Assembly: GCA_017524805.1 (NCBI GenBank)
Contig: JAFXUX010000037.1
Location: forward strand, 1-64,000
Origin: Candidatus Methanomethylophilaceae archaeon
Lineage (GTDB): Archaea; Thermoplasmatota; Thermoplasmata; Methanomassiliicoccales; Methanomethylophilaceae
Length of the DNA stretch: 64,000 bases
Reading direction: 5' to 3'
Positions within the stretch are counted from its first letter, which is position 1, and every line of letters starts with the position of its first letter. This document shows, piece after piece, positions 27,129-48,661 of the stretch. Under the pieces are notes generated by a model, which worked only from the letters and a program-made list of their open reading frames with translations, was not told the DNA's origin and made no database searches. The translations under genes were made by a program, and so were the position numbers.

Positions 27129-27181
27129 AACATCTGTTAGTACTTCGCACTATTATCCGCAGAGCGGAAGAAGGCTTGGAT

Positions 27182-29089
27182 ATGGCGAAGAAGCAGTTCA
27201 AATCCGAATCGAAGCAGCTCCTGAATCTGATGATCAATTCCATCTATACCCACAAGGAGATCTTCCTGAGGGAAATGATCTCCAACGCGTCGGATGCGAT
27301 CGACAAGCTCCATTACAAATCGATGACCGACAACCTTCCCGTCGCCAGGGAGGATTTCAAGATCGTCGTCTCCTGGGACAAAGACGCCCGCACGATAACC
27401 GTCTCGGACAACGGCATCGGAATGGACAAAGAGAGTCTGGACGCGAACCTCGGAGTCATCGCGCACAGCGGATCCCTGGATTTCAAGAAGGCCATGGAAG
27501 AGAAATCCGATATAGACATCATAGGGCAGTTCGGCGTCGGGTTCTATTCCGCATTCCTCGTCTCCGAGAAGGTCGAGGTCATCTCGAAGCCTTACGGATC
27601 CGACCAGGCATGGATGTGGGTCAGCGAGGGAGCCGACGGATACTCCATCAAGGAATGCCAGAAAGATGGCTGGGGAACCGACGTCGTGATGCACATCAAA
27701 CCTGACGCGGACGGCGAGAACTACTCCGATTTCATCGACGAATACAGGCTCAAAGAGCTAGTCAAGAAATATTCCGACTATGTGAGATGGCCGATCCACA
27801 TGACCCTCGAGAAAGGGGCGATGGAGGAGACCGGGGAGACCGGCGAGGACGGCAAGCCCAAGAAAGAGTGGAGAACCCATCTGGAAGACACCGTGGTCAA
27901 CAGCATGGTGCCCATCTGGCAGCGCCCCAGGAGCGACGCTTCCGACGAGGACTGCATCAAGTTCTACAAGGACAAGTTCCACGACTACGAGGATCCGGTC
28001 TCCGTCGTCAGGATCAACGCAGAAGGCGCCATAAGCTACAGGGCAATGCTCTTCATCCCGAGGGTGGCGCCGTACAACTTCTACAGCCGCGACTTCGAGC
28101 CTGGGCTCCAGCTCTATTCCAACGGCGTCATGATCATGGAGAAATGCAAGGATGTCCTCCCAGACTGCTTCAGATTCGTGAGAGGCGTGGTGGATTCCCC
28201 CGACCTCTCCCTGAACATCTCGAGGGAGATACTCCAGCACGACCGCCAGCTGGGCATGATAAGAGCGAACATCGAGAAGAAAATCAGGAAAGAGCTCGAG
28301 ACCATTCTCGCCGATGACCGCGACAAATACCTGGAATTCTACAAGAGCTTCGGCACCCAGCTGAAATACGGCATCGTCGAAGACTACGGAGCCAACTCTG
28401 ATATTGTCAAAGACCTGGTGATGTTCCACTCGATGGCCCAGGACAGGCTCATCACCCTCAAAGAGTACAAAGATTCAATGGCGGAAGGCCAGGAGAAAAT
28501 CTATTATGCGTCGGCAGAAAGCATCTCCCGCGCCAAGCAGCTGCCCCAGGCCGAGCAGGTCAGGGACAAGGGGTACGACATACTCTGCATGACCGAGGAC
28601 GTGGACGAATTCGCTATCCGCACGCTCAGAGCTTATGATGAGAAGGAGTTCTGCGACATATCCGGAAACGACCTCGGCATCGAGACCGAAGAAGAGAAGA
28701 AAGAGGCCGACGAGAAGGAGAGCAGCGAAAAGGAGATACTCGACTTCGTGAAGGAGACCCTCGGAGACAAGGTTTCGTCGGTGAAGCTCTCCCGCAAGCT
28801 CAAAAGCCACGCGGTCTGCCTCAGCACCGAGGGCGATGTCTCGCTGGAGATGGAGAAATACTTCGCCAGCATACCCGGCGGTTCTGACATTAACCAGATC
28901 AAAGCCAAGCGCATCCTGGAGATCAACGGATCGCACCCCGCGTTCGAATCCCTCAAGAAAGCTTACGAAGAGGACAGGGACAAAGCCAAGGACATGGCTA
29001 ACATCATGTACGTCCAAGCGCTGCTCATCGCCGGGATGCCCGTGGACGATATCATGGAATACTCCGACCTGGTCTTCAAATTCTTCTGA
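27182..29089 (+). CDS. htpG: HtpG, Hsp90-family chaperone
   Basis: 635 residues from ATG 27182, which follows a purine-rich GGAAGAAGG; a TTG two codons upstream is an alternative. The N-terminal GHKL ATPase contains EMISNASDAIDKL, VSDNGIGM and IGQFGVGFYSAF. The middle domain has RDFEPGLQLYSNGV and LNISREILQ, and an acidic linker precedes the C-terminal dimerisation region. It refolds and remodels client proteins in an ATP-dependent cycle. Hsp90 is widespread in bacteria and eukaryotes but patchy in archaea. This copy is bacterial in layout, with no charged linker of the eukaryotic type and no MEEVD tail, which suggests lateral acquisition. Confidence 0.94.
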   Translation: MAKKQFKSESKQLLNLMINSIYTHKEIFLREMISNASDAIDKLHYKSMTDNLPVAREDFKIVVSWDKDARTITVSDNGIGMDKESLDANLGVIAHSGSLDFKKAMEEKSDIDIIGQFGVGFYSAFLVSEKVEVISKPYGSDQAWMWVSEGADGYSIKECQKDGWGTDVVMHIKPDADGENYSDFIDEYRLKELVKKYSDYVRWPIHMTLEKGAMEETGETGEDGKPKKEWRTHLEDTVVNSMVPIWQRPRSDASDEDCIKFYKDKFHDYEDPVSVVRINAEGAISYRAMLFIPRVAPYNFYSRDFEPGLQLYSNGVMIMEKCKDVLPDCFRFVRGVVDSPDLSLNISREILQHDRQLGMIRANIEKKIRKELETILADDRDKYLEFYKSFGTQLKYGIVEDYGANSDIVKDLVMFHSMAQDRLITLKEYKDSMAEGQEKIYYASAESISRAKQLPQAEQVRDKGYDILCMTEDVDEFAIRTLRAYDEKEFCDISGNDLGIETEEEKKEADEKESSEKEILDFVKETLGDKVSSVKLSRKLKSHAVCLSTEGDVSLEMEKYFASIPGGSDINQIKAKRILEINGSHPAFESLKKAYEEDRDKAKDMANIMYVQALLIAGMPVDDIMEYSDLVFKFF

Positions 29090-33509: not shown

Positions 33510-33517
33510 TTTATAAG
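33510..33517 (+). promoter_or_regulatory. TATA box of Shango-like operon
   Basis: TTTATAAG is about 40 bases before the ATG at 33554 in an AT-rich stretch. It puts transcription start about 15 bases before the first gene. Confidence 0.45.
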
Positions 33518-33553
33518 CAAAACACGATACCGCCCGCGCATCGGAGACAATAG

Positions 33554-35692
33554 ATGGCAGGAAAAATACACCCAGACGATTCATTCAAGGAAGGCCGCGC
33601 GATGGATCTTACCATTGAGGCAATGGAAAAGTACTGGAGATACGGAGGGGAGCCTTGCGAATATGTCCCCAGCCTGATCCTCCATCCGGGGTACAGAGAA
33701 TTGGAGTGGAAACGCCTGAGATACTATCTCCATTGGAGGTCCGACGTCTTCGATGGGCTCTACGGAGACACAGATTCCGGATACATATGGTTGCATTCGA
33801 TGGAGCTCCTGCTGGTGAATGATGACCCGGAAGAGGCCGACAGGTGCTTCAGAGGGATGATCGAAGCCTACAAAGGGCAGAACAATGCCGTGGACTACAT
33901 TCTCACGGCAACCAGCGCATTCCACCAGGCCTCGAACCACATGATGATATCGGATTATCCGGCCCTGAACAGAAGCCTCCGCACCCTCAGAATATGCATG
34001 ATCCTGTCTTCCGAAAAATTCGTCCCGCTGTCCGCCGAAGACATCAGATTCATAACCGGCCGCAAAGGGACCAAAATAGACAAGTACGCAGATGAAACGG
34101 CCATTATAGTCAGCGCCGCCCTCCATGAGATAGGGAGATGGCAGAAGCCCAACGGGATCCTCAGCCTCTGCGCGCGCCCTCTGGATACCTACGAAAAATA
34201 CCCGTTCGCATACGACATCTGGTACATCCCTAAGGAACTGAGATTCAGGTGCAGGGACATCAAAAACTCGGAGATATTCGTGGACCTGACCAAAAAGCTG
34301 CACAAAGCCTGCGTGCTGTACCTCGCCGGAAATGACGACATCGATTCCTTGGCCGGAAAATACGCTGCAACCCTCAGAAAGTGCATAGAAGCGCACAAAA
34401 ACGGAACCCTCGGCGAGATAACCGCGCCGTACAGGAAAACCGGGTCCCCATGGGATGAGACGATGCACAGCCATAACGGAAGATTCGAGGCCCATCGCAA
34501 GGATGGGGTATGGCCCAGCTACCGTTTCCAGTCGAGGATGAGGGAATACAGCATGGTGATGGTGCCTTCGACCGGGAGGATCGACTCCAACCCCCCTCCG
34601 GAACCGTGCTATTCCAGTATGACCCTTGGGATGTTCGGCGAATACCAATCCTGGAAAGACAGCGTTCTGAGGGGAGAGAAAACGATCGGCAGATGCCGCG
34701 GATTCTCATGGCTTCTGTCCCAGGAGATCCTCTGCGACCCGTCGCTCGACCCAGAATCAGCCATCCATGCGCTCACGCTCTGCAAAAACAATTCGGATTC
34801 GCCCATTGACAAGAGAATAGACAACGCAATCATTGAGCTGTGCCTCATCGACGATTTAAATCCCCCGGAGCTGGACAGATACTCTGACCTCGTCCGCGTC
34901 GAAGCTCTGACGACGCGCGCGCTTCTTTCGGAACCCCCAAGAGACCTGTCATCGGAACAGATAAGACGCTGCTGGGACGGAGAATCGGACGATCCCGCCC
35001 TAACCGATGCGGTCAATGCCTCCCTGAAGCTGCTCCATTCCAAAGGCTCGAGGCTCAGCACCATAGCGGACATGAGGACGATCACCCAGACCATATCGAC
35101 GTTCGAAGGATTCGCAGGCATGCCCATCTCCGTGGATGTGAAGATTTTCGGCCCCGGAAACAAAGATTTCGTCAGGATCATATCTTCCATCTGCAAAATC
35201 GCGTCCGCCGCGATTTCCGGGGAGAAATGCCCGCGCTGCCCCTCCGGATTCGGCTCCAATAACCGCGATATTGTGTGCGAAGCAACTCTCATAGCCCTGA
35301 AAGAAAGGGAGAGCAAAAAGCGGAGGGAATCCATGGCCAATATGCGCTTGGATATGTCAGCGATAGAGGAGGCGGAGAACGACCTCAGAGACATCGCGAA
35401 GATGCTGGGCGCGGAAGTCGAAGATGAGCCCCTGGATATTGGTAAGACTATAGTGAATATAGAAATTAAGACTATAGTGGAAAAAACGGGAGACCCCTGG
35501 AAAGACTTCGCAGCCATGCTCACCGAGGAACAGAAACAATACGCCAAAGAATGCCTTGAAGGGACGAAGGTCAACAGGACCTTGGAGAGGGCGGTCAACT
35601 CTGCCGCAGCCGACACAATAGGGGATATTGTCCTGGACAACGGCACCGCCATCGAAGATTACGCGCAGAAACTCAAAGAAACTGTTTGCTGA
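33554..35692 (+). CDS. sngA: TerB_N/TerB_C protein, Shango SngA-like
   Basis: 712 residues. The N-terminal part has the TerB_N pattern LRYYLHWRSDVFDGLYGDTDSGYIWLH (about 55-81, shown here only as landmark residues W62, R63, G74, Y77) and helical repeats after it. The last ~120 residues, ending in a DPWKDFAAMLTEEQKQY block, match TerB_C. A CPRCPSG motif near 559 could bind metal. TerB_N and TerB_C flank many stress and conflict systems, and in the Shango antiphage system a TerB-domain protein is encoded with a DUF2791 ATPase and a helicase. Here those two genes follow directly: the ATPase ATG is 11 bases after this stop and the helicase overlaps the ATPase. The downstream ATG at 33602 is an alternative start. 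Confidence 0.78.
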   Translation: MAGKIHPDDSFKEGRAMDLTIEAMEKYWRYGGEPCEYVPSLILHPGYRELEWKRLRYYLHWRSDVFDGLYGDTDSGYIWLHSMELLLVNDDPEEADRCFRGMIEAYKGQNNAVDYILTATSAFHQASNHMMISDYPALNRSLRTLRICMILSSEKFVPLSAEDIRFITGRKGTKIDKYADETAIIVSAALHEIGRWQKPNGILSLCARPLDTYEKYPFAYDIWYIPKELRFRCRDIKNSEIFVDLTKKLHKACVLYLAGNDDIDSLAGKYAATLRKCIEAHKNGTLGEITAPYRKTGSPWDETMHSHNGRFEAHRKDGVWPSYRFQSRMREYSMVMVPSTGRIDSNPPPEPCYSSMTLGMFGEYQSWKDSVLRGEKTIGRCRGFSWLLSQEILCDPSLDPESAIHALTLCKNNSDSPIDKRIDNAIIELCLIDDLNPPELDRYSDLVRVEALTTRALLSEPPRDLSSEQIRRCWDGESDDPALTDAVNASLKLLHSKGSRLSTIADMRTITQTISTFEGFAGMPISVDVKIFGPGNKDFVRIISSICKIASAAISGEKCPRCPSGFGSNNRDIVCEATLIALKERESKKRRESMANMRLDMSAIEEAENDLRDIAKMLGAEVEDEPLDIGKTIVNIEIKTIVEKTGDPWKDFAAMLTEEQKQYAKECLEGTKVNRTLERAVNSAAADTIGDIVLDNGTAIEDYAQKLKETVC

Positions 35693-35703
35693 AAGGAGAG
35701 GAA

Positions 35704-37005
35704 ATGGAAGACGACAGCGGAAAGACCCCGGCAGTCCCCAAAAGGACGCTCAACATAATGATGAACGCGCTTTCCTCGGGCGTAGTCCCGCGCAGAGGCC
35801 TGGAATTCATAGCCGTGGGAAGGAAAGCCGAGACGGCGACCTTCGTGCGCGACATGGAGGACACAGCGGAAGGTGGCGGAGCATTCAGATTCATATCCGG
35901 CCGCTTCGGAAACGGGAAAAGCTTCCTGACCCAGATGATACGCACCAACGCCATGGACAAAGGATTCGTGGTCATGGACGCGGATCTGGCCGACAGCCGC
36001 AGGCTCACCGGATCCAAAAAGGAAGGCCTGAACACCTACAAAGAGCTGATAAAGAACATGGCCGTCCGCACCCGCCCGGACGGCGGAGCGATCGAAAGCG
36101 TCCTGCAGGAATGGATCGACGCGGCCACCGAAGAAGCTACAAAGAAACTCGGTAAGAAGCCGGACGACGACGCGGTGGAACTCATCCTCAAAGAATCCGT
36201 TGCAGATCTGGGCGGCCTTCAGAACAGCCGCGATTTCGCCAAGGCCCTGCTGAGCTACTGGAAGGACCTCTCCGAAGGCAAGGACGACATCCCCGCGCTG
36301 AGATGGCTGAAGGGTGAGATCGAGCTGAAGAGGGATTCTAGGAAGCTGCTCGGCGTCGATTCGACCATAGGGGACGACAACTGGTACGGATTCGTGAAGC
36401 TCTGGGCCAGATTCGCCGTCAATATCGGATACAAAGGGCTGATAGTCTTCCTCGACGAGGCCGTCGTCCTCTACAAGCTGCAGAACAAAGTCGCCAGGAA
36501 CAACAACTACGAACGCATCCTCTCGATATTCAACGACATAATGCAGGGGAAATCGTCGCATCTGTCCGTGTACATGTGCGGCACCCCGGAATTCATCGAG
36601 GACCCGAACCGCGGGCTCTACAGCTACGAAGCCCTCAGATCCAGGCTGGTAGGCGGCAGATACGAGAACGGCTACGACAACTTCCTCGGCCCGGTCATAA
36701 GGCTGCGCCCGCTCACCAACGAGGAGATCTACGTCCTGCTCAGGACCATCAGGAACCTGCACGAGCAGAAATACGAGTACGCATCCAAGGTCACCGACGA
36801 GAACCTGAAGGAATACCTCGCGGCGATCCTGTCGTCGGTATCGGCGTCGATGCTCACGCCCAGAGAGATAACCAGAGATCTGATCAGCCTGCTGGACGTC
36901 CTGAAGCAGAATCCGGACGCGAAATTCGAGGATCTTGTGACTGGAAGGACTTTGGAGCCCGATCGCAACCCGGACGACGACCTGATCGATGATTTGGAGA
37001 TATGA
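35704..37005 (+). CDS. sngB: DUF2791 (BrxD-like) P-loop ATPase, Shango SngB-like
   Basis: 433 residues from ATG 35704, chosen because AAAGGAGAGG lies five to eight bases upstream; an ATG at 35686 overlaps sngA. Walker A GRFGNGKSF is at 66-74 and Walker B LIVFLDEAV near 246-254. A sensor-like YMCGTPEFIEDPNRGLY block and RPLTNEEIYVLL follow, as in the DUF2791 ATPases found in BREX (BrxD) and Shango. It probably couples ATP use to sensing or loading of the helicase. Its stop overlaps the ATG of the helicase gene (ATGA). Confidence 0.85.
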   Translation: MEDDSGKTPAVPKRTLNIMMNALSSGVVPRRGLEFIAVGRKAETATFVRDMEDTAEGGGAFRFISGRFGNGKSFLTQMIRTNAMDKGFVVMDADLADSRRLTGSKKEGLNTYKELIKNMAVRTRPDGGAIESVLQEWIDAATEEATKKLGKKPDDDAVELILKESVADLGGLQNSRDFAKALLSYWKDLSEGKDDIPALRWLKGEIELKRDSRKLLGVDSTIGDDNWYGFVKLWARFAVNIGYKGLIVFLDEAVVLYKLQNKVARNNNYERILSIFNDIMQGKSSHLSVYMCGTPEFIEDPNRGLYSYEALRSRLVGGRYENGYDNFLGPVIRLRPLTNEEIYVLLRTIRNLHEQKYEYASKVTDENLKEYLAAILSSVSASMLTPREITRDLISLLDVLKQNPDAKFEDLVTGRTLEPDRNPDDDLIDDLEI

Positions 37006-39140
37006 CCGACAGATTCGACAGCCTCCCGTGGTTCCTCCGCGAATACATCCATGCCAACCGCTGGGAATCATTCAGAAGCGTCCAAGAGAAAGCGTTCGAC
37101 ATCCTTTTCGGGACGGACCGCCACCTTCTGATATCATCGGAAACGTCCAGCGGAAAGACCGAGGCCGCCCTCTTCCCGGCGATATCGTCGATATACAGCA
37201 ACCCGCCCAGAAGCGTCGGAGCCCTTTATGTGGGGCCGCTGAAAGCGCTCATCGACGACCAATTCGAAAGGCTGGAGCCGATGCTGAAGGATTCCTACAT
37301 CGAAGTCACCGGCTGGCACGGGGACATAAGCCTCCAATCCAAGGCGAAGCTCCTGGAAGTGCCCTCCGGGATCCTGCAGATAACCCCAGAATCCCTGCAG
37401 AACATCGTGGCTTCCAGGCCGGAGGATCTGGAGAGGCTGTTCGGAGATTTGAGATTCGTGATCATAGACGAAGTCCACGCATTCATGGGCTCGGACCGCG
37501 GCCAACAGCTTCTGTGCTGCCTTGAGAGACTTGATATGCTGGCCCATTGCGAGCCCAGACGGATAGGCCTCTCTGCCACCATCGCAGATACGGGATCCGT
37601 TGCGGAATGGTTATCAGCCAACACAGGAAGGGAAACGGCGGTGGTTACCGACCGGCCGACGGCCAAAAGAGATCTCATCATCTACTACAGCCGCTTCCCT
37701 TCGCCCGCAGAGGATCCCAACCCGAGAAAGAAGTCCGTCAACTCGTTCTATAAGCTACTGTACAAAGAGATCCGCGGCAGGAATTGCATTGTGTTCACCA
37801 ACAGCAGGGTCACCGCGGAAAGGACGGCCAGATCCCTCAAGAAGATGGCCGAGGACGCCAAAGATCCCGACGTCATCCACGTCCATCACGGCAGCATATC
37901 CAAGGAGCTCAGAAAATCGGCCGAAGAAAACCTAAAGGACCCTTCCAAGAAAACGGTGACCGTTTCGACCGTCACCCTGGAGCTTGGGATCGACGTGGGA
38001 TCCCTGGACGCGGTGATCCAGATCGATACCCCATACACCTGCTCCAGCTTCGTCCAGAGGATGGGGCGCTCAGGCAGAAGAGGCGGCGCCCAGATCATGA
38101 GGATGTTCTGCCGGGAAGACCAGGAGAAATGGTGGTCATCGGTCGAGGGCGTGTCCATGGACCTGATAAAAGGCATAGCCATAGCGACGCTGGCCGAAGA
38201 GGGCTGGACCGAATCCGAATCGGAGCCTTCCCTGCCGTATGGTCTCCTGTTCCATCAGACCATGGAATGCATGAGGCACGGTACCGGGACGAAATTCTCC
38301 CGGCTTCTCTCCGACGTCCTGCCGATGTATCCGTTCAGGAACATAAAGAAGGAAGAATACGCCGAGCTGGTCAGATACATGATCTCCGTCGGCATCATCA
38401 TGAAGATGGACGACGGGACCTTGCTGATCACCGACAAAGGAGAGAAGATCTCTTCGGACAGGGATTTCTGCTCCGTATTCACCGTCAAAAAGGAGATAGA
38501 GGTCAGCTGCGACGGCAAAGGGGTGGGCACCATCCAGGAGATGCCCAAGCAGGGAGACCTGATCCAGCTGGCCGGAAGAATCTGGAAGGTCGTGGAAATC
38601 AACGGGAAATCGCGCTCCGTGGAAGTGGAGGAGACCGAGGGATCCGCGGACACCCTGTGGAAATCCGGGGTGCCGGAAACCGACAACAGGATTATGGAGC
38701 GCATGCGGGAGATCCTGTCCTCGGATGAAGGATACGGTTTCCTCGACGCGTCGGCCTCGGAAGAGCTTTCGGCGAGCAGAAGGATGGCGATCCAATCAGA
38801 AATGCTGAAAGGCATAGTGGAAACTGATTATGGGTATCGCATCTACCCCTGGATCGGGACGAGAGCGTTCGATACCCTGTGCAGAGTCCTGAGGATGGTA
38901 TGCGACAAGGTCCTGGAAAGGCCGCCTTATTTCGCTGACGTGATGACCGAATTGGATTGGGGAGAGCTTCTGGAATACATCGAAAGGTATTCCGACAAAC
39001 GTTTCGCCGCCGACCTCATCGGAGATGACAGGCTGGAATTCGGGAAATACGACCGCTATGTTCCAGAAGATCTTTTGATGAAATCTTTGGCCGAAGACAA
39101 GCTGGATTTCTCGTATCTGGATGTTCTTAGGGATTTCTGA
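37002..39140 (+). CDS. sngC: Lhr/BrxHI-like DEAH helicase, Shango SngC-like
   Basis: 712 residues. The superfamily 2 motifs are intact: SSETSSGKTEAAL (Walker A, near 44-56), ITPESL, FVIIDEVHAF (DEVH, near 158-167), LSATIAD, VTVSTVTLELGIDVGSLDAVIQ, and motif VI RMGRSGRRGG. The remaining ~300 residues form the winged-helix and C-terminal parts of Lhr-like helicases. It closes the three-gene operon, overlapping sngB by four bases. In Shango and BREX type 2/3 loci a helicase of this group acts with the DUF2791 ATPase on invading DNA. The product is predicted to be cytoplasmic. Confidence 0.87.
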   Translation: MTDRFDSLPWFLREYIHANRWESFRSVQEKAFDILFGTDRHLLISSETSSGKTEAALFPAISSIYSNPPRSVGALYVGPLKALIDDQFERLEPMLKDSYIEVTGWHGDISLQSKAKLLEVPSGILQITPESLQNIVASRPEDLERLFGDLRFVIIDEVHAFMGSDRGQQLLCCLERLDMLAHCEPRRIGLSATIADTGSVAEWLSANTGRETAVVTDRPTAKRDLIIYYSRFPSPAEDPNPRKKSVNSFYKLLYKEIRGRNCIVFTNSRVTAERTARSLKKMAEDAKDPDVIHVHHGSISKELRKSAEENLKDPSKKTVTVSTVTLELGIDVGSLDAVIQIDTPYTCSSFVQRMGRSGRRGGAQIMRMFCREDQEKWWSSVEGVSMDLIKGIAIATLAEEGWTESESEPSLPYGLLFHQTMECMRHGTGTKFSRLLSDVLPMYPFRNIKKEEYAELVRYMISVGIIMKMDDGTLLITDKGEKISSDRDFCSVFTVKKEIEVSCDGKGVGTIQEMPKQGDLIQLAGRIWKVVEINGKSRSVEVEETEGSADTLWKSGVPETDNRIMERMREILSSDEGYGFLDASASEELSASRRMAIQSEMLKGIVETDYGYRIYPWIGTRAFDTLCRVLRMVCDKVLERPPYFADVMTELDWGELLEYIERYSDKRFAADLIGDDRLEFGKYDRYVPEDLLMKSLAEDKLDFSYLDVLRDF

Positions 39141-39430
39141 GCAGTTTGGCATATAGCACTATAGTATGATTACTCACACATATCATAAGCCATAGCTTTC
39201 AGCAATCGTAATCACTATAGTTCTATGAAAAGTTCTGGACAGATGCGATGATGATAGCACTATGGTGAAAAAGGCGTCCAGGCTGATTTTGTAATTATCG
39301 CCTGCCATAAATTCAAACCGATTTGCTGACGAAATCTGACTATTTCTGCTGAGTTTCAAAGACGGAAAGACAGCCGCTTAAAGGCCGATTTCAGTATGAT
39401 ACTTATGCTTTGGACAGACTATCCATGCTC
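39141..39430. other. intergenic region with CACTATAGT motifs
   Basis: No gene is visible in these 290 bases. CACTATAGT occurs at 39157 and 39213 and the variant CACTATGGT at 39258. The core ACTATAGT is palindromic. The region separates the Shango-like operon from the DUF2130 gene and probably holds the promoter of the latter (AT-rich near 39290-39320, CTTAAAGG near 39377). Confidence 0.5.
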
Positions 39431-40891
39431 ATGTCAGAAATCAGATGCCCCCACTGCGGAACTCTGTTCCAGATCGACGAATCAGACTACGGCAAGATTG
39501 TCAGCCAGGTTCGCGATGCGGAATTCTCCAAAGAGATGGAGTACCGCGTTCAGCATTACGAGAAAGAGAAAGCCGATGCGATATCCCTGATCAAAGCCGA
39601 AGATGAGAAGATCCGTTCCGAACTCCTGACGAAAACCAGAGAAGAGCTTACCAAAGAGATCAGCTCGAAAGACTTGGAAATAGCGGAGCTGAAAGCGAAG
39701 ATCGGCAGCTTCGAGATGGAGAAGACTATGGCCGTCAAGTCCGCGGAAGAGGCCAAAAACAGGACAATCCAGAAAATGGGCTCCGATATCGCGGAGCTGA
39801 AAGCGAAGATCGGCAGCTTCGAGATGGAGAAGACGATGGCCGTCAAGTCCGCGGAAGAGGCCAAGAATGATACGATCCTCAAGAAGGATGCGGAGATAGC
39901 GGAGCTGAAGGCCGAACAATCGAAATGGGACAGCGAGAAAAAGCTGGCGCTGTCGGAAGCCGAGAACAGAAAGATAGAGGAGATCAACTCCAAAGACAGG
40001 GAGATAGCCGATCTCAAGGCCAAGATGGAACAGGACGAGATCACTAAGAAGATCGAACAGGAAAGAATGAAAAGCGTGTACGAAGCTCAGCTGAAAGCGA
40101 AGGATGAGGAGGTCGAGTTCTACAAAGATTTCAAGGCAAGGCAGAGCACCAAGATGATCGGGGAATCGCTAGAGAGATTCTGCGAGAACGAATTCAACAA
40201 GCTCCGCCCCGCCGGGTTCCAGAACGCCTACTTCGAGAAGGACAACGAGATCTCCAAATCCGGCTCTAAAGGGGATTACATATTCAGGGAATCCCTGGAC
40301 GGCATCGAATTCGCCAGCATAATGTTCGAGATGAAGAACGAAGCCGACCAGACAGCCAGCAAACATCGCAACGAGGACTTCTTCAAAGAGCTCGACAAAG
40401 ACCGCAACGAAAAGGGATGCGAATATGCGGTGCTTGTCAGCATGCTGGAACCCGACAGCGAGCTGTACAACACGGGCATCGTAGACGTCTCGTACAGGTA
40501 TCCGAAGATGTACGTCATCAGGCCGCAGTTCTTCATTCCCATCATCACCCTGATAAGGAACGCATCGAGAAGCTCTCTGGAATACAAGCAGGAGCTGCTG
40601 GTGGTCAGGAACCAGAATCTGGATATCACCCATTTCGAAGAGAACATGAACGCCTTCAAGGACGGATTCTCGAGGAACTATCGCATCGCGAGCGAGAAGT
40701 TCTCCAAAGCCATCGAGGAGATAGACAAGACCATCGACCACCTTCAGAAAGTGAAGGAGGGACTGATCGGATCCGAAAGACAGCTCAGACTGGCCAACGA
40801 CAAGGCCCAGGACCTTTCCATCAAGAAGCTGACGAGGAACAATCCGACGATGGCGAAGAAGTTCGAGGACCTGAAGCAGGACAGCGATTGA
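39431..40891 (+). CDS. DUF2130 coiled-coil protein with nuclease-like core
   Basis: About 486 residues from ATG 39431; ATG 39425 and TTG 39410 are in-frame alternatives. An N-terminal CPHCG...F zinc-type motif is followed by a long coiled coil (about 35-225). The coil contains an exact internal repeat of ~26 residues ([20 protein letters not shown] occurs twice), also clear in the DNA at 39690-39868. The C-terminal half matches DUF2130. The segment [10 protein letters not shown]...[13 protein letters not shown], with spaced Asp, Glu and Lys, resembles a PD-(D/E)XK endonuclease core. It lies 290 bases after the Shango-like helicase on the same strand. A DNA-processing or defence role is an inference. 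Confidence 0.75.
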
Positions 40892-40970: not shown

Positions 40971-43900
40971 TTATGCCACGCGGCTGAGAACCTTCCCGTC
41001 TCCGGCGAAAGACTTCCCTGCGAGGTTGCTGGCGGTCGGGTCGAGTTTGCTCACCCCATCCATGAACGTCAGACCATAGAACGCGTTCTTGCCTACGTCG
41101 AAAAGGTCCCAGGAGAAAGTCGCGAAAGCCAGAGGCACGCCGCTGAATGCGCTGGCCCCTATAGTCAAGGCCGAAGAGAGATCCATGCCGTACAGCTTGG
41201 TGCATCCGAAGAACGCGTAGCTTCCGATGCTCTTCGCCGATGTGTTCACGTAGACGAGCCCGGTGCATCCTGCGAAAGCCTTGAATCCAACGGTTTCGAC
41301 GTCTCCGAGGTAAGCGTAGATCAAAGTCTCGCACTTGTAGAACGCCTGGTCCGCGATGGCCCTCACCTTGAATGAAAGCGAGCCGTACTTGACCTCGCTT
41401 AGGACGGAGATCGCGGATATGCTGCCTTCATAGCCCACCAAGGAAACCTCGTTGGGCATGATGGAGGTCACGGAATAGACCAGACCGTCGACGGTTATCT
41501 TGGCGCCGACCTTGGGGCATTCGTAGAGCTTGGAATCCGCTCCCATGAAGGTCTTGCCTGCAAGCCCGGCGGCGTCCTCGGTGATGGCCGCGCCATCGGT
41601 AGAGTAGAAGAATGCCCTGAAGAAGGCGTTCTTCCCGACGTATGCGAGCGAATCGGAGAATACGAGCGATTCCAACGCTCTGCACTCGCTGAATGCGCTG
41701 GCATCGATCGTCACGACGGACGTGAGGTCCAGATTCTTGAGGGGGCATCCGAAGAAGCAATATGTTCCGAGATATGGTGCCGAGACCTTCACTCCAACGA
41801 GACTGGTACAGTTCGCAAAGGCCCTATCGCCTATCATGGAGACCGCACCGAGATCGGCGTATTCCAGGGTGGTGCACCCATAGAACGCCTTTGCAGACAC
41901 GGAATCCACGGTGTAAGCCGATCCGCCGTAGCTCACGCAGACCGGGACGATAAGGCTGGATATGCTTCCCTCATACCCGGTGATGGTAACGCTGGATTCG
42001 CTGTCGATGGAATACTGAATGCCGTCCATCACGAAGGAGCTACCCACGGAAAGGCGCTCATAGAGCTTGGAATCGCTTCCGACGAAGGTCTTCCCCTTGA
42101 GGTCGCTGGCCGTCACCTTCAAAGCAGAGCCGTCGGCCCCGTAGAACGTCACGGCATTGAACGCATTGGAATAGACTTTGGACAGCTCATCGGAGAATGT
42201 TATGGAATAAATCCCAGAGGTGTTGTGGAAAGCATATGCTCTAATCTCCTTGGACCCGGAGATGTCGACGTATCTGAGCGATGGGCAATCCAGGAAGTAG
42301 TAGCCCCTGAGGACCTCCATATCCACGACCGCGGAAACGAGGCTGGAGCAGTACTCAAACACTCTGGTGCCGCTGGCCGGAATCGCCGATATATCGGCGA
42401 AAACGATTGAATTGCATTTATAGAAGGCCTTGTCGGCGATGTACGTGACCTTGAATTCGAGGCCCTTGTACTCGACGTGATCGGGCGCTATGACGACGGT
42501 TGGGTTGCCCTGATATCCGGACAGCGAAACTTCCAACGGTACCGCGGAGGTGATCGTGTACTTGAGGCCGTCGACATAGAATGTCTCACCGACTGCGATG
42601 TCGACGCATTGGAGGACTCCGTCTATGACGTAGAATTCCTTGCCGGCGAGGTTTCCGGCGGTCTTCCTGACTTCGGCGCCATCGACCATGAATTTGAGAG
42701 AGCCGAGGGCTTGGGTCCCCAGATCGGTGAGCGCATCGGAGAATTTGATGTGCGTGATGGCCATGCTTCCGTAGAATGCGTAGCCCATGATGCTCTTGGC
42801 GCCGATGGTGACATCGGACAGCGAGGGGCTGCTGGCGAAAGCCTTCATCCCTATGGTCGGAACGCTTCCGGTGTCGACGGAAACGAGAGAGCTTCCGAAG
42901 AACGCCTTCTCGCCTATCGAATCCACTGAGAACTTGTAGAGTCCCACTGACACCTCGGAAGGCACGGTGAGTTCCGTGATCTTCTCTTCGCTTCCGGTCA
43001 GAGAGACGGAGCCATCGGAGATCACAGTGTAATTCAATCCTCCCACGGAGAACGTCTCCCCGATTGCAGGGACGGCCATCAAAACGGAATCAGAACCGGT
43101 GAACTCCTTTCCAGCGAGGTTGGCGGCGTTCTTCTTCAGCTCATTCCCGCTGAAATCGAGGAACTTCAAGGATCCGAGGGCTTGGGTCCCCAGATCGGTG
43201 AGCGCATCGGAGAATTTGATGTGCGTGATGGCCATGCTTCCGTAGAATGCGTAGCCCATGATGCTCTTGGCGCCGATGGTGACATCGGACAGCGAGGGGC
43301 AGCTGGCGAAGGCCTTCATCCCTATCGTCGGAACGCTTCCTGTATTGACGGAAACGATGGGACTTCCGAAGAACGCCTTCTCGCCGATGGATTCGACTGC
43401 GAGAGCCTTTCCTTTGTAGGTCACAGATGCGGGCAAAGATACTTCAGTCTTGTCCGAGGAACATCCCGTGACGGACACAGACTTCATGTCCTGGAGGACC
43501 GTGTATTCGATGCCGTCGAACGAGAAGACTTCGCCCTCTGTGATATCTGAGGCTTTCACGACTTTGACCGTGCAGGTCGCGGTCTTGGCGCCATCTACGG
43601 TGGTGACGGTTATGGTAGCAGTCCCAACCGCAACCGCAGTGACGACTCCTGACGCGGATACTTTGGCGACAGCCGTCTTGCTGGATTTCCATGTAACGGA
43701 CTTATCGGTCGCATCGGAAGGCAACACAGTGGCCGTCAAAATCGCAGTAGATCCTTTTTCGATCGATATGGACGAAGCATTCAGAGTCACTCCGGTGACA
43801 TTGACCGTCGGAGCGACCACTGTCACGACGCATGTGGCGGTCTTGGATCCGTCATTAGTTGTGACTGTAATCGTTGCTGTTCCGGGCGCGACCGCGGTGA

Positions 43901-46262
43901 CAACGCCTGCCGAAGACACTTTGGCGACGGCTGTCTTGCTGGATTTCCAGGTTACCGATTTGTCTGTCGCATCGGAAGGCGACACGGTAGCGGTAAGAGT
44001 GTGCTTTTCTCCAGCCTCCAAAGAGAGCTTAGAGGAATCAAGCGAAACACCGGTGACGTTGACCATCGGAGCGACCACTGTCACGACGCATGTGGCGGTC
44101 TTGGATCCGTCGGTTGTTGTGACAGTGACTGTCGCAGTTCCGGGCGCAACAGCTGTGACAACTCCTGACGTGGATACTTTGGCGACAGTAGTCTTGCTGG
44201 ATTTCCAGGTCACGGACTTATCAGTTGCATCGGATGGTGACACGGTGGCTTTAAGAGTGTGTTTTTCTCCGGTCTCAAGGGAGAGCCTGGCAGAATCAAG
44301 CGATACGCCTGAAACTGGAACATTGGGGTTAGTTACGGTAACCAAACTAATGTCCGAGAAACTCCCGTCTTCGGTGGTCACAAATATGTTGGCTTTGCCT
44401 TCCTTGATTGCTGTGACCACTCCAGTAGAACTTACGGTTGCGACGCCTGCATCACTGGACCTCCAGCTCACATTCTTGTTGGTTGCGTCGGAAGGCGAGA
44501 TGTTCACAGTCAGATTCGCGGTCTTACCGACATCGAGCGAGAGCGTGTCGGGCTTGATATCCACGCCTGTGACTCTAATATCAGAAGATCCAATAACCAC
44601 TGCACCCTCCACGAGGTTGGGCGAAATTAACTCACCAGCAACATTGAACATCTCGGTGCGGACGATCTTGACTGGGAGGCTCCCGGAAGCATCTCCTACG
44701 ACATCGAACACCAAAGTCGCCAGAACCCCGGTCGAAGTCACGTCGCTCACGGCTGAGTTCTCAGCATAGAAGAAATACGGGTTGATAGTGTAGTCTTCGT
44801 TGGGCGTGATGGCCATCAGGGTGCCGGATTTGAGCTCCTTGAGCGTAAGGCCCTGGCCGTATTCTATTTCGAAATCCGATCCGAAGAATCCCCCGTTGGA
44901 GTCTACGGTTATATTGACTTCGACATTCTTAGCTCCAGGCTCGGACTGGACCGCATCGACGCTTATTGATACGCAATTAGATGAGGCATTCCTCGTTACG
45001 ATGACCTTGCAGGTTGCTTTATAACCGCCATCTGAAGTGGTGACAGTTATCGTTGCCGTTCCGGTGGAAACGGCTGTAACAGTCCCATCGCTCACCGTGG
45101 CAACAGATGTGTTGCTTGATTTCCAAGTCAAATTTTTGTTTGTCGCGTTAGAAGGGTTCACAACGGCGTTGAGATTGGTTTTTTCTTTGACTTTGAGACT
45201 GAGAGAGGTTTTGTCCAATGACACTCCTGTGACACTGACGACTTTCTCTTTGACCTCAACAAGACATATCGCCGGAATAACGTCTCCTCCAACTGAGGTT
45301 GCTATTATATAAGCGGAACCTGCCGATTTGGCAGTGACCTTTCCGTTGGAATCCACAGAAACGATGTCGCCCTGACTGGAAGTCCATGTCACCCTCTTAT
45401 CAGTGGTATTTTGAGGCAGAACCGTGGCTTTGAGAGTGAAAGTATCGCCGGTTTCTAAGCTGAGAGAATCGGCGTTAAGAGTTATGCTGGTGGCTTTGAT
45501 CCCTGCATCCACTGTTACGCGGCAAACACTGGAAAAACTGCCATCCTGGGTAGTGACAAATATTGATGCCGTACCAGACGACATGCCGGTGACGACACCA
45601 GTGCTGCTAATAGTAGCCACATCTGGATTGCTAGATCTCCATGATACATTTTTATTAGTCGCATTAGACGGGGACACAGATGCGGTAAGGGTGGCCGTTT
45701 GGCTCGCCTTAATAGAAACCGTGGAGGGAATCACACTCACTCCCGTCACAGGGACACGAACGGTAGACGTGACTATCGCTCCGTCCTCGCAGATGACTTC
45801 CACATCCTTGCCAGCAACATTGAAAACTTCCGAAAAATCAAGTATTATCGGGAATTCCCCCGATTTGCCGCTAGGCGCATCGAAATACAATGTAACCAGC
45901 AAACCCTTCTGATCTATATCGTCGATAGACGAGTTCTCAAGGTAGAAAGGGTACGGATTCATGCTGTAATTATCATTCGGAGTGAGCGGCATTACCCCGG
46001 CACTTATTCCTGTGAGAGTAAGATTAGAATCGTATCCAATCTGGAATTCTCCGCCGAAGAATCCGCTGTTATCTTCGATAATTATGGGGACTTCGATGGA
46101 ACTGTCCCCACTCGTAGCATAAACGGTATCGATTATTATTATCAACTGCGGATTTTCCTCCGCATCAGCTTCTGACTCGAAGCCGATGAGAGCCGCAGAA
46201 AACAGTGTTATTGCCAACACGGCGATGAAGCCGTAAATGGCCGATTTCGTTTCGCATGCCAT
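40971..46262 (-). CDS. giant surface protein: cohesin-like, BIG2 and BspA leucine-rich repeats
   Basis: 1763 residues. A signal or anchor segment (about 9-27) is followed by cohesin-like domain 1 (38-168), three BIG2 Ig-like domains (171-424), cohesin-like domain 2 (427-560) and four more BIG2 domains (562-900). Then comes an ~860-residue array of BspA/LRR_5-type leucine-rich repeats, visible as recurring IGEKAFFG, IGMKAFASCPSLSDVTIGAKSI and AFYGS units. No C-terminal membrane anchor is seen. The domains are of adhesive or scaffolding type and typical of host-associated microbes. The gene shows recent internal duplication: 42703-42829 and 43174-43300 are identical. It is a tandem paralogue of the BIG2 protein encoded immediately upstream. 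Confidence 0.85.
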   Translation of the reverse strand: MACETKSAIYGFIAVLAITLFSAALIGFESEADAEENPQLIIIIDTVYATSGDSSIEVPIIIEDNSGFFGGEFQIGYDSNLTLTGISAGVMPLTPNDNYSMNPYPFYLENSSIDDIDQKGLLVTLYFDAPSGKSGEFPIILDFSEVFNVAGKDVEVICEDGAIVTSTVRVPVTGVSVIPSTVSIKASQTATLTASVSPSNATNKNVSWRSSNPDVATISSTGVVTGMSSGTASIFVTTQDGSFSSVCRVTVDAGIKATSITLNADSLSLETGDTFTLKATVLPQNTTDKRVTWTSSQGDIVSVDSNGKVTAKSAGSAYIIATSVGGDVIPAICLVEVKEKVVSVTGVSLDKTSLSLKVKEKTNLNAVVNPSNATNKNLTWKSSNTSVATVSDGTVTAVSTGTATITVTTSDGGYKATCKVIVTRNASSNCVSISVDAVQSEPGAKNVEVNITVDSNGGFFGSDFEIEYGQGLTLKELKSGTLMAITPNEDYTINPYFFYAENSAVSDVTSTGVLATLVFDVVGDASGSLPVKIVRTEMFNVAGELISPNLVEGAVVIGSSDIRVTGVDIKPDTLSLDVGKTANLTVNISPSDATNKNVSWRSSDAGVATVSSTGVVTAIKEGKANIFVTTEDGSFSDISLVTVTNPNVPVSGVSLDSARLSLETGEKHTLKATVSPSDATDKSVTWKSSKTTVAKVSTSGVVTAVAPGTATVTVTTTDGSKTATCVVTVVAPMVNVTGVSLDSSKLSLEAGEKHTLTATVSPSDATDKSVTWKSSKTAVAKVSSAGVVTAVAPGTATITVTTNDGSKTATCVVTVVAPTVNVTGVTLNASSISIEKGSTAILTATVLPSDATDKSVTWKSSKTAVAKVSASGVVTAVAVGTATITVTTVDGAKTATCTVKVVKASDITEGEVFSFDGIEYTVLQDMKSVSVTGCSSDKTEVSLPASVTYKGKALAVESIGEKAFFGSPIVSVNTGSVPTIGMKAFASCPSLSDVTIGAKSIMGYAFYGSMAITHIKFSDALTDLGTQALGSLKFLDFSGNELKKNAANLAGKEFTGSDSVLMAVPAIGETFSVGGLNYTVISDGSVSLTGSEEKITELTVPSEVSVGLYKFSVDSIGEKAFFGSSLVSVDTGSVPTIGMKAFASSPSLSDVTIGAKSIMGYAFYGSMAITHIKFSDALTDLGTQALGSLKFMVDGAEVRKTAGNLAGKEFYVIDGVLQCVDIAVGETFYVDGLKYTITSAVPLEVSLSGYQGNPTVVIAPDHVEYKGLEFKVTYIADKAFYKCNSIVFADISAIPASGTRVFEYCSSLVSAVVDMEVLRGYYFLDCPSLRYVDISGSKEIRAYAFHNTSGIYSITFSDELSKVYSNAFNAVTFYGADGSALKVTASDLKGKTFVGSDSKLYERLSVGSSFVMDGIQYSIDSESSVTITGYEGSISSLIVPVCVSYGGSAYTVDSVSAKAFYGCTTLEYADLGAVSMIGDRAFANCTSLVGVKVSAPYLGTYCFFGCPLKNLDLTSVVTIDASAFSECRALESLVFSDSLAYVGKNAFFRAFFYSTDGAAITEDAAGLAGKTFMGADSKLYECPKVGAKITVDGLVYSVTSIMPNEVSLVGYEGSISAISVLSEVKYGSLSFKVRAIADQAFYKCETLIYAYLGDVETVGFKAFAGCTGLVYVNTSAKSIGSYAFFGCTKLYGMDLSSALTIGASAFSGVPLAFATFSWDLFDVGKNAFYGLTFMDGVSKLDPTASNLAGKSFAGDGKVLSRVA
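42703..42829. repeat. 127-bp direct repeat, copy 1 (partner at 43174-43300)
   Basis: The two 127-base stretches are identical, 471 bases apart, within the leucine-rich repeat region of the giant surface gene. Perfect identity across synonymous sites indicates a recent duplication or gene conversion. Confidence 0.85.
43174..43300. repeat. 127-bp direct repeat, copy 2
   Basis: Partner of the identical stretch at 42703-42829; the two differ only beyond the ends of the repeat. Confidence 0.85.
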
Positions 46263-46384
46263 TTTGTAACCTAGGGGGCAATGCCTGTAATATGATTTAA
46301 CTTTCTATCATGCTACAGATTCTTGGTAAATCATACATCATGACAGATGTGTACGATACCAATGATTTTTACGGAACGCTGGCT

Positions 46385-46409
46385 AAAAAAAGAGGGGGCA
46401 ATTCCCCTC
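46385..46409 (-). terminator. terminator after BIG2 surface-protein gene
   Basis: On the minus strand TGAGGGG and CCCCTCT pair around AATTG, and a run of seven Ts follows (46391-46385). It begins 8 bases after the stop codon. Confidence 0.7.
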
Positions 46410-46416
46410 AAAAGTT

Positions 46417-48525
46417 TCAGAACTTCTTGGAGTGCCTCATCCAAGCGAGAACAGCAAGAAGGATCACGATGATGACGATCGCAATTCCGATGTAAAGCAT
46501 GGTGTTGTCGCTGGAGGACGAAGACTCTTTCACGGTCACTTTGCAGGTATCGGTGTGGGATCCATCGGCGCTGGTAACGGTTATCGTGGAGATACCGACG
46601 GTAACTCCTGTAACGGTTCCGTTCGACACAGTGGCAACGGAAGTATCGCTGGAAGACCATGTAACATCCTTGTTGGTCGCATTGGAGGGAATCACATCAA
46701 CGGTCAGCTTCTGTGTCTTGCCCTTCTCAATTGTCAGCTCGTGAAGACTAAGCTTGACTTCGGTTACGGCTATAGCCTCGACTGTGACATTGCAGGTCGC
46801 AGTCTTATTACCGTCTGCAGTGGTGACAGTGATGGTGGCGGTACCGGCGGAGACACCGGTGACAACTCCGTTGGCTACAGTTGCAACCGAAGAGTTGCTG
46901 GAAGACCATGAAACATTCTTGTTGGTAGCGTCTGCGGGCGCCACGGTAGCGACAAGAGTCTCGGTTGAACCGATTGTAATCTTGGCTGTCGTCTTGTTGA
47001 GGGTCACTCCGGTGACAGCTATAGCCTCGACAGTGACATCGCAGGTCGCAGTCTTGTTGCCATCTGCGGTTGTAACAGTAATCTTGGCGGTACCGACAGA
47101 TACTCCGGTGACAACTCCGTTGGCTACAGTTGCGACTGCAGTGTTGCTGGAAGACCAAGCAATACCTTTGTTGGAGGCGTCTGCGGGCGCCACGGTAGCG
47201 ACAAGAGTCTCGGTTGAACCGATAGCGATATTGGCGCTTGTCTTGTTGAGAGTTACCCCGGTAACCGGAACAGGAGCGGTGACGGTGTATTCGCAGCTCG
47301 CAGTATATCCTCCGTCCGCGGAAGTCGCAGTGATCTTGGCAGTACCGGCGGAGACACCGGTGACAACTCCGTTGGCGACGGTAGCAACTGCGGAGTTATC
47401 GGAAATCCATGATACACCCTTGTTGGAGGCATTCGAAGGCGCTATTGTGGCCGTCAAGATATCAGAAGATCCTACGGCAATGCTTCCAGAACTCTTGTTA
47501 AGAGAGATGCCGGTAACAGGAACCTGCTTCTCTGGGACAGTAACAGTGCAGGTCGCAGTTTTGGCACCGTCGACGGTGGTGACGGTTACGGTGGCGGTAC
47601 CGGCGGAGACGCCGGTGACAACTCCGTTTTCAACGGTTGCGACTGAAGGTTTGCTTGAGGACCAAGCAAGGCCTTTGTTGGTTGCGTCAGAGGGCTTGAT
47701 GGTGGCAGTCAGAGTTTCCGTGGAACCGACATCAATTGTGATGCTGGTTTTGTCTAGAGTCACTTCCGTCACTGGAATGGATTGGGCGTTGACAGTGACG
47801 ACGCATATATCCGAGAAACTCCCGTCGACGGTGGTCGCGAATATGTTGGCTTTGCCTTCCTTGATCGCTGTGACCACTCCGGTGGAACTTACGGTTGCGA
47901 CGCTTGCGTCGCTGGATCTCCAGCTCACATTCTTGTTGGTTGCATCATCAGGCGAGACGTTCGCGGTGAGATTCGCGGTCTTGCCGACCTCAAGCGAAAG
48001 CGTATCGGGCTTGACGTCCACGCCGGTGACTTTGATCTCAGAAGACCCTATGACCACAGCGCCCTCCATGAGGTTGGGCGAAATTAACTCACCAGCAACA
48101 TTGAACATCTCGGTGCGGACGATTTCAACTAAGAGACTCCCGGAAGCATCTCCCGCAACATCGAACACCAAGGTCGCCAGGACACCGGTCGAAGTCACAT
48201 CACTAACGGCTGAACTCTCAGCGTAGAAGAAATACGGGTTGATAGTGTAGTCTTCATTGGGCGTGATAGCCATTAGGGTGCCGGATTTGAGCTCCTTAAG
48301 CGTGAGGCCCTGGCCATAATTAATTTCGAAATCCGACCCGAAGAATCCGCCGTTGGGATCTATGGTTATGTCGACTTCGACGTTCTTAGCTCCCGGTTCA
48401 GACTGGACCGTCTCGACGCTTATGCTTACATTTCCTTCTGCGTCCGATTCGGAAGCAGGGACGGCGATGAAAGCGAAAGCGGCGATCGCGGCTACTGCGA
48501 GAGCCATTATTCCGTATCTGTTCAT
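46417..48525 (-). CDS. membrane-anchored cohesin-BIG2 surface protein
   Basis: About 702 residues from ATG 48525 (MNRYGIMALAVAAIAAFAF), which starts with a signal peptide and has GGAG about ten bases upstream; the open frame extends to 48636 but that part is polar and unlikely. The order is signal peptide (3-22), cohesin-like domain (about 32-165), six BIG2 Ig-like domains, then a Ser-rich linker and a C-terminal transmembrane helix ending in RHSKKF. It should stand out from the membrane and present the cohesin-like domain. The cohesin-like and first BIG2 region is nearly the same as residues 427-645 of the giant protein downstream, including 54 identical bases. Confidence 0.85.
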   Translation of the reverse strand: MNRYGIMALAVAAIAAFAFIAVPASESDAEGNVSISVETVQSEPGAKNVEVDITIDPNGGFFGSDFEINYGQGLTLKELKSGTLMAITPNEDYTINPYFFYAESSAVSDVTSTGVLATLVFDVAGDASGSLLVEIVRTEMFNVAGELISPNLMEGAVVIGSSEIKVTGVDVKPDTLSLEVGKTANLTANVSPDDATNKNVSWRSSDASVATVSSTGVVTAIKEGKANIFATTVDGSFSDICVVTVNAQSIPVTEVTLDKTSITIDVGSTETLTATIKPSDATNKGLAWSSSKPSVATVENGVVTGVSAGTATVTVTTVDGAKTATCTVTVPEKQVPVTGISLNKSSGSIAVGSSDILTATIAPSNASNKGVSWISDNSAVATVANGVVTGVSAGTAKITATSADGGYTASCEYTVTAPVPVTGVTLNKTSANIAIGSTETLVATVAPADASNKGIAWSSSNTAVATVANGVVTGVSVGTAKITVTTADGNKTATCDVTVEAIAVTGVTLNKTTAKITIGSTETLVATVAPADATNKNVSWSSSNSSVATVANGVVTGVSAGTATITVTTADGNKTATCNVTVEAIAVTEVKLSLHELTIEKGKTQKLTVDVIPSNATNKDVTWSSSDTSVATVSNGTVTGVTVGISTITVTSADGSHTDTCKVTVKESSSSSDNTMLYIGIAIVIIVILLAVLAWMRHSKKF

Positions 48526-48661
48526 TTGAATCATTCTCCGCAATGCGTTTTTGCGCATCGGATTTGGGAACCTTTCGGTTACTGATGGCGGGTAAAGGTT
48601 CACAGAATATATTATCGACGATTGGAATCGCGACAACCTAAAGAAAGGGCGGAAATAAAGG

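Follow-up and report, generated by a model that had tools for sequence, protein, structure and literature searches.

The 64,000-nucleotide stretch analysed here (the window: positions 1 to 64,000 of contig JAFXUX010000037.1, from a Candidatus Methanomethylophilaceae archaeon) carries a three-gene operon, sngABC, which is a complete Shango system of an archaeal subtype. The three genes, like all features located below, lie on the forward strand. The first, sngA (33554..35692), encodes a 712 aa protein of predicted TerB_N-TerB_N-TerB_C layout, our proposed sensor; sngB (35704..37005) encodes a 433 aa BrxC/BrxD-like AAA+ ATPase, and sngC (37002..39140) a 712 aa Lhr/BrxHI-like SF2 helicase. PADLOC matched all three Shango profiles in the correct order, with E-values of 3.2e-14 for SngA (profile positions 104-525 of 528), 2.5e-150 for SngB and 8.5e-200 for SngC, and SngB also matched Pfam BrxC_BrxD (1.6e-134). 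The compositional features of Shango, namely a TerB protein as SngA, a Walker A ATPase as SngB and an SF2 helicase as SngC, adjacent in the order A-B-C, are all present, and the locus is almost certainly Shango. An earlier sequence-only reading had claimed this composition, and the profile matches bear it out; neither a first gene outside TerB_N/TerB_C nor neighbours belonging to another system, the two refuting outcomes named beforehand, turned up. To the explanation as a whole, an archaeal-subtype Shango in which SngA would license an ATPase loader and its helicase, we give a probability of about 0.65.

SngC scores were bimodal across the order (147 genomes), with Shango loci at 580-916 bits and Lhr-type genes at no more than 323 bits (one broken Shango copy, at 399 bits, is the exception); hence the window helicase is SngC and not Lhr. 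A possible clade of defence helicases has been described that unites SngC with BrxHI, DruE and DpdJ (PMC12278908). The genes were described by the sequence-only reading as overlapping or nearly touching, with a TATA box, ATGA coupling and intact catalytic motifs, and each of these elements was found. An 11-bp gap separates sngA from sngB, and the sngB stop and sngC start share a 4-bp ATGA overlap (37002..37005, from the open reading frame coordinates). The TATA-like box TTTATAAG (33510..33517), assigned solely by consensus, lies 5' of sngA; around it, TAAT and ATAAGCA are conserved in the close relative G084 (G and L numbers denote genomes and loci), where a 25-bp leader 5' of sngA (33524..33548) is identical in the alignment and the sngA start ATG at 33554 is conserved as well. 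The mechanical list of reading frames started sngB at a TTG at 35686; we prefer the ATG at 35704 because it is preceded by AGGAGAGG. Read in the sequence, the Walker A motif of SngB is GRFGNGKS (35899..35922), and residues G66, G69, G71, K72 and S73 were invariant in the SngB alignment. Helicase motif II of SngC reads VIIDEVH (37458..37478), and motifs II (DEVH), III (SAT) and VI (QRMGRSGR) are intact. The same A-B-C order and direction recur in archaeal relatives and in bacteria, so the arrangement is not due to chance.

Profile comparisons and structure models predict that SngA is a TerB_N-TerB_N-TerB_C protein with a doubled front module. Its earlier assignment to TerB_N/TerB_C therefore stands as regards the TerB family, and the simple layout then assumed does not. 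The first TerB_N-like module (33620..34417) was placed by profile comparison, and the second (34580..35311) by hhalign of family profiles and by the model; they are followed by TerB_C at 35315..35686 (residues 588-711; E = 1e-6 with a home-made TerB_C profile, 0.052 with Pfam TerB_C). Profiles of the two halves of SngA from the genus aligned with each other over 254 columns in hhalign (E = 1.8e-45). The Pfam matches of the window protein taken alone are weak, at 23.8 bits for TerB_N (cut-off 25) and 14.2 for TerB_C (cut-off 26.3). Among four archaeal relatives (L109, L112, L138 and L121), TerB_N was above the Pfam cut-off in all four and TerB_C in one, and two TerB_N stretches were found by Pfam itself in L109 and L112. 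AlphaFold modelled the window protein with a mean pLDDT of 82 and a pTM of 0.52. In this model, a set of helices, followed by a hairpin and then by closing helices, occurs twice, at residues ~52-282 and 358-596, before TerB_C; the single module modelled alone reached a pLDDT of 93.3.

Two modules were counted in 38 of 46 archaeal SngA copies of at least 250 aa, and at least one (G046) of the eight single-module copies is cut by a contig end. Among 55 bacterial SngA frames, 53 displayed one module, one displayed two and one displayed three. The profile behind these counts was partly trained on the same modules, a weakness from which the hhalign comparison and the Pfam scan are free; with a profile built solely from bacteria, some archaeal SngA proteins showed both modules, and that of the window showed the first module only. 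The bacterial proteins with two and three modules (L168 and L180) belong to Oscillospiraceae and Clostridiaceae, and multiplication is rare in bacteria. A single TerB_N was present in the readable bacterial-type SngA of archaea (G034 and G040) and in each of two plasmid-borne Proteobacterial SngA proteins, one of which also has a middle TerB domain. In a tree of the modules, module 1 was mostly apart from module 2, with an apparent swap in the window's subclade (weak support, 80 and 87). Duplication also affects the whole gene, as a second, tandem sngA was found in the loci of G080, G092, G090, G037, G041 and G096. G095 has one sngA only, whose nearest counterpart is the distal copy of G096, suggesting that copies were lost differentially or exchanged.

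SngA also appears, from sequence identities, to be the fastest-changing subunit, a general trait of the compared Shango loci that extends beyond the archaeal clade. At RpoB identities of 80-85%, the median identity was 22.6% for SngA, 67.5% for SngB and 53.8% for SngC. In every one of the 153 archaeal pairs compared, SngA was less alike than either SngB or SngC; the underlying table left out SngA below 550, SngB below 400 and SngC below 650 aa as well as G085, and had rpoB from 22 genomes. The same held for 903 of 903 bacterial pairs; 43 of the 63 bacterial loci had all three genes at sufficient length and supplied these pairs. Divergence in every pair fits the expectation for a sensor under pressure. 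Between the window and G084, dN/dS was 0.19 for sngA and 0.07 for both sngB and sngC, and it was below 1 in all 35 computable comparisons out of 36 gene pairs, which indicates that none of the three genes is decaying. The highest value, 0.94, was that of sngA between G095 and G096, where a tandem copy has probably been exchanged.

A helicase-less relative of the operon is present in the same genome. This SngA'/SngB' pair (G000:C25:377-2777, locus L077) was also found in G080, G084, G091 and G092 (L074, L075, L076 and L078), and it is confined to the window's subclade, which makes 5 of the 31 genomes of the genus. SngB' of L077 matched PADLOC SngB at 2.6e-103, and the Walker A motif of SngB' is intact. 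The last 120 residues of SngA' match the end of SngA, that is, TerB_C (PADLOC 4.5e-11, profile positions 401-526 of 528, in L077). Its front is repeat-like, apparently beta-rich and devoid of TerB_N, and the Pfam scan gave one sub-threshold Flg_new match (0.11) in one of the five proteins. No SngC was found beside any of these loci. Hence, the pair has the SngB-type ATPase and TerB_C in common with the window Shango, but differs in the absence of an adjacent SngC and of TerB_N and in its repeat-like N-terminus. As TerB_C and the ATPase are kept and the rest is changed, the pair fits a division of labour in which TerB_N would sense and TerB_C would couple. Some genes near this locus, with radical SAM and PylC-like matches, we take to be pyrrolysine genes.

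We propose a model for how the operon may act. SngB, a BrxD-like AAA+ ATPase of the ORC/Cdc6 kind, would assemble on DNA that is invading the cell or replicating abnormally, and would load or activate SngC, an Lhr-like SF2 translocase. SngC might then unwind or strip this DNA, and viral replication would be blocked. SngA would license the SngB-SngC pair, with its two TerB_N modules forming a variable, virus-facing sensing surface and its TerB_C domain coupling to the ATPase. The sensor and coupler part of the model draws on the divergence of SngA, on its doubled modules and on the recurrence of TerB_C beside an SngB-type ATPase in the helicase-less pair. In BREX, BrxD is described as an ORC/Cdc6-type ATPase that forms a linked dyad with BrxHI and is proposed as its loader (PMC12839542). 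We assign the role of sensor to SngA and that of SngC loader to SngB tentatively, at somewhat less than even odds. A subunit that changes fastest (in the 153 archaeal and 903 bacterial pairs), a duplicated front and a recurring tail domain nonetheless offer handles on the mechanism of Shango, and from them we predict a sensing part and a coupling part in SngA. A broader idea, which we consider rather doubtful, is that Shango is a sensor-swapping platform, with a constant core of TerB_C and a BrxD-like ATPase, an N-terminus that is exchanged or multiplied, and an optional helicase. These N-termini range from a single TerB_N module through two or three of them to a repeat-rich domain of another kind. 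If true, the genus would hold in its core gene set a system with two sensing modules, several species would add a second tandem sngA, and species would carry different sensors on nearly the same engine.

SngB was detected in 42 of the 147 genomes of the order, within 3 of 30 genera. Every one of the 31 genomes in the window's genus had it (the archaeal type in 30 of them), and so did members of two neighbouring genera, with 8 of 14 genomes in g7 and 3 of 6 in g12. As yardsticks, rpoB was recovered from 25 of the same 31 genomes, and two further defence families, N6_Mtase and AbiEii, from 10 and 13. In a sample of the phylum, 17 of 389 genomes had SngB; of the 155 genera sampled, 2 were represented, both belonging to Methanomethylophilaceae. 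The near relatives that carry a name are metagenome-assembled genomes assigned to Candidatus Methanomethylophilaceae, and most of them come from the guts of ruminants and other animals. SngC reached at least 580 bits in 29 of the 31 genomes of the genus, that of G093 being of the bacterial type. G093 holds both the archaeal and the bacterial type of Shango; in G085 only the bacterial type was found, with one internal stop in its SngC. In G089, sngC runs off the contig end, and the sngC of G079 is split across frames; this split (L039, 9056-12642) reflects either an assembly error or a recent loss.

The archaeal-type SngB proteins appear to form a single clade to which the nearest bacterial Shango does not belong. 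In a quick unrooted SngB tree of 88 rows, the 38 archaeal-type rows fell on one side of a branch with a support of 86. The helicase-less relatives stood beside this clade on a long branch, and the bacterial-type SngB of archaea (G034, G040 and G085) nested among those of gut bacteria. The bacterial rows came from the 80 loci nearest to the query, the tree took in 42 of 63 bacterial loci, and Proteobacterial Shango lies outside it. Within the genus, SngB identity tracked RpoB identity (Spearman 0.79, 153 pairs), and the RpoB and SngB trees had 7 of 18 splits in common, including clades of 8, 6, 5 and 4 genomes. One strong RpoB clade (G082/G083/G088, 99/99) was broken in the SngB tree. With 7 of 18 splits agreeing and that clade broken, we reject strict vertical descent and take descent to have been largely vertical with some exchange. 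SngB had no match among 50,697 phage records or viral contigs; distant matches occurred in 681 plasmid records, all below 60% identity. A search of plasmids with the first protein of the helicase-less pair gave no match.

The operon probably serves antiviral defence, as the Shango of Pseudomonas is reported to restrict phages (PMC10250203). Several observations weigh against our explanation. Archaeal defence systems are reported to have a patchy spread (PMC12988326), so that fixation throughout a genus is unusual and differs from the common picture of defence genes. The locus lies outside any defence island, amid repair and housekeeping genes: hsp90, uvrA-like, dinB and, in relatives, sbcCD-like. 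The quick divergence of SngA can equally mean weak constraint, with dN/dS reaching 0.94. Structure searches did not help, as Foldseek (E ≤0.001) matched neither SngA nor its module to anything in PDB, BFVD likewise gave nothing for SngA, and no solved fold was matched by the SngB sequence. The best VIA-align Z-scores (6.2 for SngA, 5.1 for the module) are within the tool's stated background, and a PDB sequence search with the SngA alignment returned chance-level rows only.

The likeliest alternative is domestication: the operon would derive from Shango but would now serve this genus in genome maintenance or under stress, its helicase and loader acting on damaged DNA of the cell itself, and the antiviral action would be secondary or lost. 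A detection of SngB in every genome of the genus, above the recovery of rpoB, speaks for this, as do the correlation of SngB with RpoB identity, the several deep RpoB clades kept in the SngB tree, the uvrA-like, dinB and sbcCD-like neighbours, and the purifying selection on sngB and sngC. However, SngA is hypervariable and tandemly duplicated, unlike a housekeeping subunit, only the bacterial type was found in one genome and another holds both types, and in 27 of the order's 30 genera no Shango SngB was found. We therefore regard domestication as unlikely and favour an antiviral Shango. Its fixation in a genus of gut methanogens raises the question of whether defence genes may turn into core genes and which role they would then play.

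Much less probable is a tellurite- or metal-stress complex, in which the TerB domains would take part in a Ter-type response without an antiviral role. TerB-type domains are named after the tellurite resistance (Ter) system, and Pfam does match TerB_N and TerB_C, below threshold in the window protein. Yet the SngA-type genes of the loci examined adjoin a BrxD-like ATPase, which a helicase follows in most loci, the ten neighbours scanned in Pfam included no further ter gene, and bacterial relatives of like make-up restrict phages according to PMC10250203. The last alternative, a remnant of type 2 BREX (Pgl) in which a BrxD-BrxHI pair outlived the loss of PglX, PglZ and PglW, finds some basis in further PADLOC matches of SngB to BrxD (1.7e-47) and of SngC to BrxHI (2.3e-124), but it is largely refuted and scarcely credible, since both fall far short of the Shango profiles, SngB scored 159.7 bits with the NCBIfam BrxD model for BREX type 2 against a cut-off of 350, PglZ gave 0 matches across the genome to which the window belongs, which is 98% complete, and the first gene of the archaeal loci, and of most bacterial ones, is of TerB type. 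The lack of PglZ also upholds the sequence-only reading in its claim that the operon is not a BREX fragment.

Shango in an archaeon is not in itself new, since it has been reported from Asgard archaea (PMC11291487). We found no description of a Methanomethylophilaceae Shango, of a doubled TerB_N or of fixation in a genus in the open-licence PMC literature, a scope that excludes bioRxiv. What is new is the form: the genus-wide fixation, the apparently separate clade, the doubled TerB_N, the fast SngA and the helicase-less relative. Like the Shango of P. aeruginosa PA14 and E. coli (PMC10250203), the window system is a three-gene operon of a TerB-type protein, an ATPase and a DEAD/DEAH helicase. 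It differs from them in that its SngA has two TerB_N and no recognised middle TerB (PF05099), which a Sulfitobacter relative has, and in that its type appears to be a separate archaeal clade, fixed in the genus and not placed in hotspots or on plasmids. The Shango loci of gut Bacillota and of G034, G040 and G085 have the same three genes in the same order, whereas their SngB is ~40-49% identical to that of the window and their SngA mostly has a single TerB_N. With the BrxD-BrxHI dyad of type 2 BREX (PMC12839542), the operon shares a linked AAA+ ATPase and SF2 helicase; the partners there are PglW, BrxC, PglX and PglZ, and here SngA, in a genome without PglZ.

The genes around the operon are common within clades and different between clades. 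A full-length Hsp90 (HtpG-like) gene lies at 27176-29089 of the window; such genes are generally uncommon in archaea. In 17 of the 31 genomes of the genus, hsp90 and sngB are no more than 10 kb apart, and an hsp90 gene was found in 60 of the 147 genomes of the order. We considered Hsp90 as a partner of Shango and rejected it: genera that lack Shango have hsp90 too, and 5 changes are needed to explain the linkage on the RpoB tree, where shuffles need 6.7. We treat hsp90 merely as a marker of location. Directly 3' of sngC, positions 39410-40891 encode a DUF2130 coiled-coil protein; in other members of the subclade, sbcD/sbcC-like genes take up that position. The DUF2130 gene was rejected as a fourth member of the operon, as it was absent from the other neighbourhoods seen and PADLOC gave only LmuB (0.0081). 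Further downstream (40971-48636) are two large genes for surface-protein-like products, the second of which (46417-48636) displays six Big_2 stretches.

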